The notes under the pieces: generated by a model
Seen by the model: only the letters and a program-made list of their open reading frames with translations
Database searches by the model: none
Told to the model about the DNA's origin: nothing
Source: Dietzia sp. B32
GTDB taxonomy: Bacteria; Actinomycetota; Actinomycetes; Mycobacteriales; Mycobacteriaceae
DNA length: 64,000 nucleotides
Assembly (NCBI RefSeq): GCF_024732245.1
Contig: NZ_CP093845.1
Span: 992,001-1,056,000 of the forward strand
Direction of reading: 5' to 3'
Part shown: piece by piece, positions 34,024-39,035 of the stretch
How the letters are laid out: each line of letters opens with the position of its first letter
How positions within the stretch are numbered: the first letter of the stretch is position 1
Translations under genes and position numbers: made by a program

Positions 34024-34410
34024 TCAGCGCGTGAGGTCCTTCATCATCGAGCGCATGTCGGCTGCCAGTTCGTCGGCCAGGTCCTGGAGGCCACCGGAGA
34101 TGACCTGCGAGAGGAGATCCGGATTCTGCGCCTCGATCACGCAGCCGCCGCCGGACTCGCGGATGACCACGTTGCACGGGATCATCAGGGCCACGTCCTT
34201 GCTCACGTCGAAGGCCTTCCCCGCGAACCCGGGGTTGCAGGCGCCGAGGATGAGGACGCGCTCGATGTCCTTGTCGATCTTGTTCTTCAGGGTGGCCGTG
34301 AAGTCGATCTCGTGGAGGATCCCGAATCCACGATCGGCGAGCGCTGCCCGGGTCGCCTCGACCGCCTCGTCGAACTCCATCTCGGTGTACGTGCCGATTC
34401 CGATGTCCAT
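34024..34410 (-). CDS. DUF302 family protein
   Basis: A 128-residue protein matching DUF302, a small alpha/beta domain family of unknown function. Segments FDEAVEATRAALADRGFGILHEIDFTATLKNK and LGACNPGFAGKAFDVSKDVALMIPCNVVIRE match its core, and conserved Cys lie in GACNP and IPCN. It follows the CsoR-like regulator by 91 nt on the same strand. In other bacteria DUF302 genes often sit beside CsoR-family regulators and sulfur-handling genes, which suggests a link to thiol or sulfur redox stress. Confidence 0.82.
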   Translation of the reverse strand: MDIGIGTYTEMEFDEAVEATRAALADRGFGILHEIDFTATLKNKIDKDIERVLILGACNPGFAGKAFDVSKDVALMIPCNVVIRESGGGCVIEAQNPDLLSQVISGGLQDLADELAADMRSMMKDLTR

Positions 34411-34501: not shown

Positions 34502-34828
34502 TCAGGCGAGCGAGAGGAACAGTTTCTCGAGTTCGGGCAGGTCGACCCCGTCCGCCCCGGGTTCGCCGTCGCGGGCGATGCACTCCTGGATGTTCTCGCT
34601 GATGATCTTGAACCCCGCACGGTCCAGCGCCTTGGACACCGCCGCGAGCTGGGTGACGATCTCCTTGCACGAGCGCTCCTGCTCGACCATGTCGATCACC
34701 GCGTTGAGCTGGCCACGCGCCCGGCGGAGCCGGTTGAGGACCTGCTGGCGGGGCTCGGACGCGGCCCTTTCGGGCACCGCCCGGTCGGGCACAGCTTTCA
34801 CGGACTCTGCTCGTTCGGTTTCCGACAT
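34502..34828 (-). CDS. CsoR-family repressor with CstR-like Cys/Asn/Cys pattern
   Basis: A 108-residue all-helical DUF156 repressor with a 25-residue unstructured start. By spacing, Cys54 and Cys83 correspond to Cu-binding Cys36 and Cys65 of M. tuberculosis CsoR (both 29 apart), but the His61 position is Asn79. Loss of that His with both Cys kept is the pattern of persulfide sensors such as CstR, not copper sensors. Two copies of the operator core lie 59-91 nt upstream. The ATG follows GAGAGGA. A copper role cannot be fully excluded. Confidence 0.85.
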   Translation of the reverse strand: MSETERAESVKAVPDRAVPERAASEPRQQVLNRLRRARGQLNAVIDMVEQERSCKEIVTQLAAVSKALDRAGFKIISENIQECIARDGEPGADGVDLPELEKLFLSLA

Positions 34829-34886
34829 CGTCGTTCCTCTCGTGGATCGCTGATGGTCTCGGATGGTGAAGGCGGACTGACGCGAG

Positions 34887-34933
34887 ACCCCCGTGGGTCC
34901 ACCGGATGCCTCCAGTGTACCCACGGGGGTATA
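34887..34933 (-). promoter_or_regulatory. Twin CsoR-family operators in inverted orientation
   Basis: ACCCCCGTGGGT (34887-34898) and its exact reverse complement ACCCACGGGGGT (34919-34930) are centred 32 nt apart, about three helical turns. The outer copy extends to TACCCACGGGGGTATA, a TACCC-N4-GGGTA dyad of the CsoR-family type. A TACACT -10 (34914-34919) on the minus strand overlaps it. The two copies could also pair as a 16-bp hairpin in the mRNA leader. Confidence 0.6.
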
Positions 34934-34971
34934 TTTGCGCGAGTGCCGGTTCGGGCCGGCCCGGCTGACGC

Positions 34972-36093
34972 TCAGTCGTCGTGGACGATGATCCCGCGGA
35001 CCATCCCCTCGCCGCCCTTCTCCATGATCTCGTAGCCCTCGTTGACCTGGTCCAGCGTGAAGCGATGCGTGATCAGCTCGTCCAGCTTGAGCTGCTTCTC
35101 GTCCCACAGCCGCAGGATGTTGGGGATGTCGTGGAAAGCGTTCGCGGAGCCGAAGAGTGAGCCCTTGATGACCTTCTCGTACTGCGAGACGAACAGCCCG
35201 GGCAGGGTGATGGACTGGTTGTCGAGGCCACCCATGGAGGTCAGGACCACGACGCCGCGCTTGCCGACCATGTCGGTCGCGTCGGCGGTGACCTTCGCGT
35301 CGGCCACCCCGATGGTGATGATGGCCTTCTCCGCCATCGTGCCCCAGGTCAGCCCCGGGAGCTCGGCCTTGGCCTCGTCCACGTCCGTGTAGACGTGGGT
35401 GGCGCCGAACTCCTTGGCCTTGGCCAGCTTCGACTCGTCGGTGTCGATGGCGAGGATGAAGCGCGCACCGGCGTGCTTGGCACCCTGGATGGCGTTGATC
35501 CCGATCCCGCCGATACCGAAGACGACGACGGTGTCGCCGGCCCGGACGTCGGCCGAGTAGACGGCGGAACCCCAGCCGGTGGTGACGCCACAGCCGACCA
35601 GCGCCGCCACCTCGAAGGGAATCCAGTCCTGGACCTTGACCACCGAGTTCATGTTGGCCACGGTGTACTGCGAGAACGTCCCCAGGGTGCACATGGCACC
35701 GGCGGTCTCGCCGTTGTCCAGCTTGAACGGGTAGCGGCCGTCGGCCATCTCACCGATGGTGCCGTTGAGGCCGCCGTCGCAGAGGTTGGTCATGCCGCGC
35801 GCACAGGCCGAACACTTGCCACAGGCGGGGATGAAGGACCCCACGACGTGGTCACCGGGCTGGACGTGGGTGACGCCCTCGCCGACAGCCTCGACGACGC
35901 CCGCCCCCTCGTGACCCCCGACGATCGGCAGGCGACCGGGCAGGTCGCCGCTGGTGATGTGCAGGTCGGAGTGGCAGAGTCCGGCGACCTTCCACTTGAC
36001 GAGCACCTCGCCGAAGTTCGGTCCGTCGAGCTCGGCCTCGACGATCTCGAACGGCTTGCCGAGCTCGCGGGCGATGGCGGCCTTGGTCTTCAA
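34972..36093 (-). CDS. NDMA-dependent (nicotinoprotein-type) zinc alcohol dehydrogenase
   Basis: A 373-residue medium-chain zinc dehydrogenase oxidising primary alcohols to aldehydes. Catalytic zinc ligands are in CHSDLH and GGHEGAG; the structural zinc site is CGKCSACARGMTNLC; the nucleotide loop is GIGGIGINAIQGAK. The sequence is closest, from memory, to the Rxyl_3153-type NDMA-dependent dehydrogenases, which keep NAD(H) bound and pass electrons to mycofactocin. The mft operon begins under 2 kb away, supporting this. The TTG start is chosen because GGAGGG lies 7 nt upstream. A GAACACGTTC-like dyad lies 40 nt upstream. Confidence 0.85.
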   Translation of the reverse strand: MKTKAAIARELGKPFEIVEAELDGPNFGEVLVKWKVAGLCHSDLHITSGDLPGRLPIVGGHEGAGVVEAVGEGVTHVQPGDHVVGSFIPACGKCSACARGMTNLCDGGLNGTIGEMADGRYPFKLDNGETAGAMCTLGTFSQYTVANMNSVVKVQDWIPFEVAALVGCGVTTGWGSAVYSADVRAGDTVVVFGIGGIGINAIQGAKHAGARFILAIDTDESKLAKAKEFGATHVYTDVDEAKAELPGLTWGTMAEKAIITIGVADAKVTADATDMVGKRGVVVLTSMGGLDNQSITLPGLFVSQYEKVIKGSLFGSANAFHDIPNILRLWDEKQLKLDELITHRFTLDQVNEGYEIMEKGGEGMVRGIIVHDD

Positions 36094-36132
36094 TTGATCT
36101 CCCTCCGGGCGCGACGGGGCGAGACCCGTCAC

Positions 36133-36147
36133 TGAAACGTGTTCTAG
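36133..36147 (-). promoter_or_regulatory. KstR-like operator (GAACACGTTT core) before the alcohol dehydrogenase
   Basis: On the minus strand it reads CTAGAACACGTTTCA, close to the KstR consensus TAGAACACGTTCTA. It lies 40 nt upstream of the TTG start. Two related dyads are at 36189 and 37771. Confidence 0.4.
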
Positions 36148-36188
36148 CAACGTTAGCCCCATAGGTGAATTCCGTGGGGTGGTTACAA

Positions 36189-36198
36189 GAACGCGTTC
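36189..36198. promoter_or_regulatory. Perfect dyad GAACGCGTTC
   Basis: A 10-bp palindrome about 100 nt upstream of the alcohol dehydrogenase start. It shares the GAAC-N2-GTTC core with the sites at 36133 and 37771. Confidence 0.35.
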
Positions 36199-36252
36199 CA
36201 GTGCGGATACCCGTCGCGGTGACCGGTCAGGAGGCGCGAGCCGGGTCGCGGA

Positions 36253-36636
36253 TCAGGGCTGGGCGTCGCCCTGCTGCGCCTGGGCGTCCTCGACGGCCTT
36301 GCGGACCTCGTCCATGTCGAGCCCCTTGATCTGTTCGACCAGGTCGTCCAGTGCCTGCTCCGGGATCGCTCCCGAGTGGCGGAACACCGCGATGCCCTCG
36401 CGGAACGCCATGAGCGTCGGGATGGACTGGATCTGCAACATCGCCCCGAGCTGCTGCTCGGCGTCGGTGTCCACCTTGGCAAAGGTCACCTCGGGGTTCT
36501 TGCCCGAGACCTTCTCGAAGACCGGACCGAAGGCCTTGCACGGGCCACACCACTCGGCCCAGAAGTCCACCAGGACGATGTCGTTGTCGGTGACGGTCTT
36601 CTCGAACTCGGCGGTCGTGATGTCGACGGTGCTCAT
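36253..36636 (-). CDS. Thioredoxin
   Basis: A 127-residue cytosolic thiol reductase with the WCGPC active site near 30 (VDFWAEWCGPCKAFGPVF) and the cis-Pro segment QSIPTLMAFREG. The last 20 residues are an extra Gln/Asp-rich tail. The ATG is preceded by AGGAGGG. Upstream, at 36738-36753, lies an ATACCC-N4-GGGTAT dyad like that of the nearby CsoR-family gene, so it may belong to the same regulon. Candidate -10: TAGGCT at 36693-36698. No thioredoxin reductase is adjacent. Confidence 0.93.
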   Translation of the reverse strand: MSTVDITTAEFEKTVTDNDIVLVDFWAEWCGPCKAFGPVFEKVSGKNPEVTFAKVDTDAEQQLGAMLQIQSIPTLMAFREGIAVFRHSGAIPEQALDDLVEQIKGLDMDEVRKAVEDAQAQQGDAQP

Positions 36637-36737
36637 ACGAATGCCCTCCTAGCGCGGACGGGGCGACTCTCGTCCCGCCTCGTGTGGTCGCCAGCCTACG
36701 GACAGCCCGCGCCGGCGACGACCTTGCGCGTCAATCG

Positions 36738-36753
36738 ATACCCATGAGGGTAT
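36738..36753. promoter_or_regulatory. CsoR-family type operator dyad (ATACCC-N4-GGGTAT)
   Basis: A perfect 6+4+6 inverted repeat upstream of the thioredoxin gene. It has the same TACCC-N4-GGGTA architecture as the dyad at 34918-34933 upstream of the CsoR-like gene. It lies 40 nt upstream of the candidate thioredoxin -10. Confidence 0.5.
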
Positions 36754-37790: not shown

Positions 37791-39035
37791 CTACCACGCC
37801 CGCTCGGCGATCACCCGTGCAGCGAGGTCCTCGGCCACCGCGAGGACCGTGTAATACGGCCCGCACCTCGGCAGTGCGGGCAGCGCCGCCGCGTCGGCGA
37901 CCCGCAGTCCCCCCACCCCGAGAACGCGCCCGGACTCGTCGAGCACCTCCCCGATCCGCGCCGTGCCGGACAGGTGCTGGGAGGTCGAGGGAGTGACGGC
38001 CCCGTCCAGGTCCAACCGGTCCGCCACCAGGGCCGCGGCCCCGGCCAGGGCGGCCGCGTCGTCCGGGTCATCGGCCAGCTCCACGATCCCGTCGTCACGG
38101 ATCCGGCCACGGCCGACCGGGTTCATCAGGGCGATTCCGATCCGGTGCGGCACCGGCTCCAGGCCCGGGATGACGTGGTGCAGCGGCACCGCGTAGGGGC
38201 GGATCTCGATCTCGGCCTCGGCGGACACCCGCAGCCGGACGACGTGGGAGAGCAGCGGCGGCAGGCCCCGGGCCGGGTCCGGGCCCGTCGTGACCTCCGC
38301 GGGCAGGTCGAGCAGGACTTCCGGATGCTCCTGTACGCCGTGGCCGACCGGGTGCCCGGAGGACGGTCCGATCCCGGACGCCCCCAGCAGTGCGGCGGTC
38401 CCGATCGCCCCCGCACACAGCACCACCTCCCGGGCACCGATCTCCTCGTCGTCGTCGAGTACCACGCCGTCACACCGCCCGGCGACGCGCCCGCCCTCCC
38501 ACCTGAGCGACCGGACCCGCGCCCCGGTCCGCACCCGCACGCCCGCGCCGGCCGGGTCCCAGGCATCGAACGCCGTCACCCGCCGCCCACCACGGCGCGC
38601 CTGTCCGATCGCGGACACACGGCCCGGGAAGGCTGCGGCCACGCGCGCGGCGACCGGCCCCATCGGCGCCAACCCGGGTCGGAGACGCTCCGCGGCGCGG
38701 GCCAGGCCCACCGCGTAGCGCCGCGGCCAATCCGGACCCCATTCCGCGAGGTCCGCCGGACGGGCGGGCGTGCAGTAGCCGCCGTTGACCGCTCCCGACC
38801 CACCGAGGGTGCGGCCGCGGGGCAGGTCGAGGCTCGCGCCGCCGAGCGTGGCGCGGTGCCGGGAGACGACCCGCGACCCCGGCCCCACGTCGAGCAGTCC
38901 CGCCCGGGGTGAGGCGGCGACCGAGCCCGCCTCCAGCAACAGGACGTCGGCTCCGGCCTCCGCCAGGCGACGGGCCATCACGCAGCCGGCGGGGCCCGCG
39001 CCGACCACCACGATGTCGGACCGCCCCCCGCTCAT
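37791..39035 (-). CDS. mftG: Mycofactocin-system GMC family oxidoreductase MftG
   Basis: A 414-residue flavoprotein of the glucose-methanol-choline family. The FAD loop is VVGAGPAGCVMARRLAEAG at the start, with RTLGGSGAVNGGYC and C-terminal TSQHLSGTARIG, the region of the catalytic His. In mycobacteria MftG passes electrons from reduced mycofactocin towards respiration. The ATG overlaps the mftF stop in ATGA, and it is the last mft gene of the operon. A longer upstream start would run into mftF. Confidence 0.9.
   Translation of the reverse strand: MSGGRSDIVVVGAGPAGCVMARRLAEAGADVLLLEAGSVAASPRAGLLDVGPGSRVVSRHRATLGGASLDLPRGRTLGGSGAVNGGYCTPARPADLAEWGPDWPRRYAVGLARAAERLRPGLAPMGPVAARVAAAFPGRVSAIGQARRGGRRVTAFDAWDPAGAGVRVRTGARVRSLRWEGGRVAGRCDGVVLDDDEEIGAREVVLCAGAIGTAALLGASGIGPSSGHPVGHGVQEHPEVLLDLPAEVTTGPDPARGLPPLLSHVVRLRVSAEAEIEIRPYAVPLHHVIPGLEPVPHRIGIALMNPVGRGRIRDDGIVELADDPDDAAALAGAAALVADRLDLDGAVTPSTSQHLSGTARIGEVLDESGRVLGVGGLRVADAAALPALPRCGPYYTVLAVAEDLAARVIAERAW

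Follow-up and report, generated by a model that had tools for sequence, protein, structure and literature searches.

The closest described relatives of the system analysed here are CsoR-family regulators with sulfur genes among their targets. ScCsoR of Streptomyces coelicolor is reported to be autoregulated, to bind ATACC-N6-GGTAT, to be released by polysulfide, with Cys37 and Cys66 both important, and to control a gene set for a dioxygenase, a rhodanese and a sulfite transporter (PMC7533328). CstR of Staphylococcus aureus targets the cst operon, and di- to tetrasulfide links between its Cys31 and Cys60 have been reported (PMC9774590, PMC9405070). The CsoR-like TTHA1953 of Thermus thermophilus is described as repressing thioredoxin together with sox genes (PMC10318464). 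The thioredoxins of S. coelicolor are reported to reduce sulfane sulfur and to be activated by AdpA (PMC9952706). Here we analyse a CsoR-family regulator gene in a 64,000-nucleotide stretch of the Dietzia sp. B32 genome (NZ_CP093845.1, positions 992,001 to 1,056,000; hereafter the window) and the dyads that we predict to be its operators. Our best reading, to which we give a probability of about 85%, is that the gene encodes an actinobacterial persulfide repressor of the CstR/ScCsoR type, a kind already known, with a regulon of five units. The family, residues, dyads, positions, conservation and regulon content are computed. The new part is the scattered regulon, which includes a thioredoxin and a family of tiny Cys/His-rich proteins.

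The window regulator resembles the ScCsoR circuit in its family, in its two cysteines 29 residues apart and in the dyads at its own gene and at dioxygenase, rhodanese and TauE genes. ScCsoR is described as a four-gene circuit, however, and the accessible passages of that report do not name thioredoxin, DUF302 or a tiny cysteine protein as targets (PMC7533328), whereas in Dietzia the regulator lies about 1 Mb from the dioxygenase-rhodanese-TauE operon and dyads also precede thioredoxin and tiny-protein genes. With CstR and its relatives the regulator shares the fold family, the dithiol pair, an Asn at the His position (as in structures 7MQ1 and 7MQ2) and cst-type target genes (PMC9774590, PMC9405070), although its predicted targets are scattered, unlike the cst operon. 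TTHA1953 is likewise CsoR-like and is described as a cysteine-dependent repressor of thioredoxin and of sulfur genes distant from the gene that encodes it; it differs in its DNA motif (TACNNTACNNNNGTANNGTA) and in its Sox pathway targets (PMC10318464).

Results

The regulator scores well above the PF02583 cut-off of 22.8 bits (Table 1). Residue inspection shows that its only cysteines are Cys54 and Cys83, that it has no histidine, and that the Cys-His-Cys site of copper sensors is absent, Asn79 standing in place of the His. The sequence-only reading of this stretch had described the family, the cysteine spacing and Asn79 correctly. It had also taken Asn79 as the CstR pattern, and for this residue by itself that did not hold. 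Asn occupies the equivalent position in 18 of 18 aligned orthologues from the genus and in 7MQ1 and 7MQ2 (both deposited as csoR, although a figure legend in PMC9774590 names the latter CstR), but a second genus paralogue has Gly or Ser there (11 loci parsed out of 12), and among 37 relatives at other loci the residue is Ala, Gly, Ser or Glu, with Gly or Ala in 35. The missing His is the only trait at this position common to all three groups. The FrmR model scores 36.3 bits on the window regulator, below its cut-off of 133. In a tree of the regulators, built on few columns, with many unresolved forks and with a very long branch leading to the copper outgroup, the 18 orthologues form one supported clade (99/95), separate from the second paralogue.

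Exact TACCC-N4-GGGTA occurs at just two sites in the window, 34918-34931 and 36739-36752. Their coordinates put the first 90-103 bp ahead of the regulator's start codon (ATG) and the second 103-116 bp ahead of that of thioredoxin. Shuffled windows held a mean of 0.04 such sites, and none of 100 shuffles held two. The common architecture claimed for the two promoters was therefore borne out; the regulator dyad is present as claimed, though its span had been given as 34918-34933, shifted by one from the true 14-mer. The sequence-only reading had also proposed a genome-wide search, which we ran over the 3.73-Mb genome against a reversed-pattern control. The 14-mer did not exceed its control (counts given below), while the 16-mer ATACCC-N4-GGGTAT, with at most one mismatch, gave six sites against one. 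Each of the six falls in the promoter of one of five units: regulator-DUF302, thioredoxin, the dioxygenase-rhodanese-TauE operon (two dyads), a gene for a 56-residue protein and a gene for a 44-residue protein. The small sulfur/thiol regulon that had been suggested is thus larger, spanning five promoters genome-wide, and its dyads do stand at sulfur/thiol genes. None of the six lies at a copper gene; all are at sulfur/thiol or tiny-protein genes.

In the operon with the doubled dyad (locus L011), next after the putative dioxygenase comes a rhodanese that carries a YgaP-like membrane portion, and then a TauE exporter. The name persulfide dioxygenase is our reading of its Lactamase_B and Rhodanese domains; no model with this name in the library gave a match above cut-off. 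This doubled dyad, together with thioredoxin dyads in 20 of 22 genus promoters, supports the earlier suggestion that the regulator would be a persulfide sensor.

Table 1. Features of the predicted regulon and its surroundings; positions refer to the window unless marked otherwise
Feature	Position	Strand	Evidence
CstR-like (CsoR-family) repressor, 108 aa	34502-34828	-	PF02583 82.6 bits; Cys54/Asn79/Cys83; aligns with 7MQ1 at both Cys and Asn
DUF302 protein, probably co-transcribed with the regulator	34024-34410	-	PF03625 67.5 bits
Thioredoxin, CGPC active site	36253-36636	-	TIGR01068 108.9 bits, cut-off 96.8
Predicted operator dyad of the regulator-DUF302 unit	34917-34932	.	GTACCC-N4-GGGTAT, one outer base off
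Predicted operator dyad of thioredoxin	36738-36753	.	ATACCC-N4-GGGTAT, exact
Two dyads directly upstream of the dioxygenase operon	L011:4934-4972		genome-wide 16-mer search
Putative persulfide dioxygenase, 464 aa	L011:5026-6420		Lactamase_B and two Rhodanese stretches
Tiny Cys/His-rich protein, 56 aa	804922-805089 (genome)		16-mer dyad upstream
Tiny Cys/His-rich protein, 44 aa	starts 1231249 (genome)	-	16-mer dyad upstream
NDMA-dependent (mycofactocin-type) alcohol dehydrogenase, between thioredoxin and regulator	34972-36093	-	TIGR03989 472.3 bits, cut-off 440

Conservation was followed in 23 genomes of the genus, with an orthologue of the window regulator defined by at least 136 bits and separated from the second paralogue by score. 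The orthologue is present in 18 genomes, the second paralogue (52-61% identical to the window regulator) in 12. An exact 14-mer dyad is found in 16 of the 18 orthologue loci (L013-L030) and in 8 of the 12 second-paralogue loci. These loci span about 3 kb and some are cut; within them a dioxygenase match accompanies 9 of 12 second-paralogue genes versus 0 of 18 orthologues, and DUF302 is seen in 7 of 12 and 16 of 18, respectively. Thioredoxin orthologues occur in all 23 genomes (one copy, in G014, is split into two matches). Parsing of 22 of their promoters showed 16 with an exact dyad, 4 with a dyad that departs by one mismatch and 2 with none; where the dyad occurs, its start is 112-116 bp ahead of the ATG, and its inner four bases vary. 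Four genomes (G004, G005, G009 and G010) have the second paralogue elsewhere and no orthologue of the window regulator, yet retain an exact thioredoxin dyad, and the dyad is therefore independent of a neighbouring regulator gene.

The two tiny proteins of the regulon belong to a family with the pattern CxxCGKTTWxGCGxHVDxV. They show CxxC and GCGxH as well as, at the C-terminal end, a Cys-x-Gly-His-like motif. An identical copy of the 56-residue protein is encoded by Dietzia sp. E1. At E 0.01, Pfam matched none of 75 members and NCBIfam one (RsxB, E 0.0069, chance level). Scanning one genome per species gave at least 595 pattern matches, of which at least 588 were confirmed, and the best 80 were kept as loci with up to 5 kb a side. 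These are the best scorers and not a random sample, with many close kin; by name they come from Actinobacteria of many genera and from one metagenome-assembled genome labelled Acidobacteria (L180). In the 79 loci with at least 150 bp upstream (L124 was left out), an exact four-spacer dyad lies within 300 bp upstream of the tiny gene in 51. Spacers of 0-2 and 5-10 gave none, spacer 3 gave two and the reversed pattern none, and dyads occurred in 2.1% of random 300-bp windows from these loci (308 of 14,734). In 45 of the 51, a gap of 30-59 bp separates the end of the nearest dyad from the tiny-gene start.

Linkage adds to this picture. Genes for a CstR-like regulator, a dioxygenase-like protein, thioredoxin, rhodanese, TauE or DUF302 lie near the tiny gene in 49 of the 79 loci; 26 loci have the dyad only, 25 the dyad and linkage and 24 linkage only, which makes 75 with either, and four have neither (L104, L121, L125 and L173). 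The matches comprise 40 regulators (threshold 65 bits), 24 dioxygenase-like proteins and 19 thioredoxins (both 100 bits), and 12 DUF302, 10 rhodanese and 9 TauE proteins (each 70 bits). Ten of the 24 dioxygenase-like proteins are at least 62% identical to the Dietzia sp. B32 protein and 14 only 27-34%. Three of the distant ones, when scanned, matched Rhodanese and Lactamase_B (the latter below cut-off in L113), and the distant group may thus represent a second enzyme type. The 80 loci were picked by the tiny protein alone and give an independent view of its partners: exact dyads occur in the 300 bp upstream of 14 of 19 thioredoxin genes, 9 of 10 close and 8 of 14 distant dioxygenase genes, 3 of 12 DUF302, 2 of 10 rhodanese and 0 of 9 TauE genes. 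Thioredoxin (14/19) and the close dioxygenase (9/10) thus emerge independently as dyad genes. In five loci (L115 and four others among L103-L182), an open reading frame (ORF) that by inspection resembles an alpha/beta-hydrolase starts 11-137 bp after an exact dyad and is a possible further member of the regulon.

Within the genus there are 40 tiny-protein matches, 30 of them with loci. In group 1 (20 loci), the 250 bp upstream contain an exact dyad in 12 cases and a dyad with one mismatch in 2. The other six have no dyad of their own: five are located downstream of a tauE and/or dioxygenase match, and one (L091) is not. In group 2 (10 loci), five have an exact dyad and five have no dyad, exact or with one mismatch (L093 in G004, L098 in G005, L094 in G009, L092 in G010 and L095 in G020); four of these five belong to genomes that lack the window-type regulator. 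The tiny protein is also kept in small genomes (1.2-1.4 Mb) of family f22 (G043, G060, G075, G100, G110 and G130), in which the window regulator had no match at E 1e-6; the tiny protein can therefore occur where no close relative of this regulator is present. On plasmid pREL1 of Rhodococcus erythropolis PR4 (L197), a tiny-protein match with no listed gene stands amid genes for DsrE, CcdA, a thioredoxin-domain protein, DUF302, TauE, rhodanese, a cytochrome oxidase subunit and a sigma factor, which looks like a plasmid-borne sulfur module. In the SUL module of Arthrobacter plasmids, the tiny-protein match on pA8H1 sits between the regulator and an MBL-fold gene; the available text describes this module as a gene list, without an operator, a protein family or a regulon reading (PMC6305408).

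Could the regulator be a copper sensor of the CsoR/RicR type and the tiny proteins copper metallothioneins similar to MymT? MymT is controlled by RicR, and a small Cys-rich target is reminiscent of it. The regulator does belong to the same Pfam family as the copper sensors and gives a weak match to the NCBIfam RicR model, and five of the 80 tiny-protein loci (L107, L112, L154, L157 and L162) contain weak copper-ATPase matches of 48-65 bits. The ScCsoR site, moreover, is described as highly similar to the CsoR site of Geobacillus thermodenitrificans and to the RicR sites of Mycobacterium tuberculosis (PMC7533328), and the dyad alone therefore cannot tell copper from persulfide. Against a copper sensor stand the missing His ligand and the RicR score, at 40.9 bits far below the cut-off of 175. 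The genome has one other CsoR-family gene, which adjoins the gene of a P-type ATPase that carries a heavy-metal-associated domain (L012); its product keeps the His ligand, reaches 147 bits with the RicR model, also below cut-off, and the gene has a dyad of its own immediately upstream, with a five-base spacer, the sole exact dyad of that kind in the genome. The 79 tiny-protein loci, which hold the 40 CstR-like regulators and 24 dioxygenase-like proteins, contain no copper ATPase at 100 bits or more and no copper-type regulator at 65 bits or more. We consider a copper sensor very improbable. In 15 of the 23 genus genomes, a comparison of coordinates by eye places a five-spacer dyad no more than 120 bp from the copper-type match; three of the 23 have no five-spacer dyad anywhere. 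Judged from these sequences, persulfide and copper regulons within the genus seem to be told apart by the dyad spacer, four bases in the former and five in the latter.

Four genes of the window run on the minus strand in the order thioredoxin, alcohol dehydrogenase, regulator and DUF302, the last as the sequence-only reading had it. The alcohol dehydrogenase has no exact dyad of its own and is probably a bystander. The minus strand also encodes, at 37791-39035, the GMC oxidoreductase MftG (NF038210 type; 757 bits against a cut-off of 300), which belongs to a mycofactocin gene neighbourhood. Thioredoxin, alcohol dehydrogenase and mftG are also grouped in two genomes without the window regulator (L189 and L193), and the tie to mycofactocin genes that had been drawn for this regulon therefore looks incidental.

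Discussion

Every feature of the CstR/ScCsoR type that we looked for is present in the window regulator as judged from sequence: the fold family, the cysteine pair, the missing His, and predicted dyads at a dioxygenase-rhodanese-TauE operon. By analogy with ScCsoR and CstR, we envision that the reduced regulator sits on the ATACCC-N4-GGGTAT dyads and shuts the five units. A rise in sulfane sulfur would lead to persulfidation of Cys54, perhaps linked to Cys83, and to release of the repressor. The derepressed dioxygenase, rhodanese and TauE would oxidise and export sulfur, and thioredoxin would reduce persulfides to sulfide, as suggested by findings in S. coelicolor (PMC9952706). The tiny proteins could bind or pass on sulfane sulfur, or protect via a zinc-thiolate site. 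We infer binding to the dyads, persulfide as the signal, derepression as the response, and the roles of DUF302 and the tiny proteins.

A different signal would be sensed if the regulator were a general thiol-oxidation or electrophile sensor, responding to disulfide, hypochlorite or formaldehyde with thioredoxin as its main target. The weak FrmR match and the presence of thioredoxin among the targets would fit such a sensor, as would TTHA1953, which is reported to lose DNA affinity with H2O2 or with Cu(II) in the absence of reductant and to be insensitive to NaHS (PMC10318464). The only doubled operator, however, belongs to the persulfide dioxygenase operon, and 9 of 10 close relatives of the dioxygenase at other loci are preceded by a dyad. 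We regard a general thiol sensor as unlikely, if less so than a copper sensor.

Several points weigh against a persulfide repressor with this five-unit regulon. Genome-wide, the 14-mer with a four-base spacer shows no excess (six sites versus seven in the reversed control), and one of the six lies inside an ORF of a ribosomal protein cluster, as named by inspection. A consensus scan recognised no sigma-70 promoter. Of the 40 regulators encoded near tiny proteins, only 10 are preceded by a dyad within 300 bp. Two genomes, G003 and G007, carry the regulator orthologue but no thioredoxin dyad, and the thioredoxin locus of G022, which lies outside the 22 parsed promoters, has no exact dyad. TTHA1953, a functional cousin, is reported to be unresponsive to NaHS (PMC10318464). 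Finally, because the window-type regulators form their own clade and have Asn where most other actinobacterial relatives seen have Gly or Ala, their chemistry could differ from that of these relatives. We nevertheless favor a CstR-type repressor with a five-unit regulon as the best explanation.

The place of the tiny proteins in this regulon is, on sequence grounds, well supported by dyads and linkage. For tiny proteins acting in a sulfane-sulfur response, the passages available of the papers cited here hold no precedent. We propose that they have an accessory part in the defence against sulfane sulfur, perhaps accepting persulfide at a zinc-thiolate site; any chemistry as carrier or buffer is guesswork. 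More tentatively, and with less than even probability, they could be an unrecognised core component of actinobacterial sulfane-sulfur homeostasis, a persulfide carrier or acceptor or a buffering zinc-thiolate protein made upon CstR derepression and working with the dioxygenase and thioredoxin.

If our reading is right, thioredoxin-dependent reduction and dioxygenase-dependent oxidation of persulfides would be tied to one predicted actinobacterial sensor. The spacer rule of four versus five bases would, if true, aid the annotation of CsoR paralogues. A widespread, unannotated family of small proteins, with at least 588 confirmed relatives, gains a testable context in the defence against reactive sulfur.

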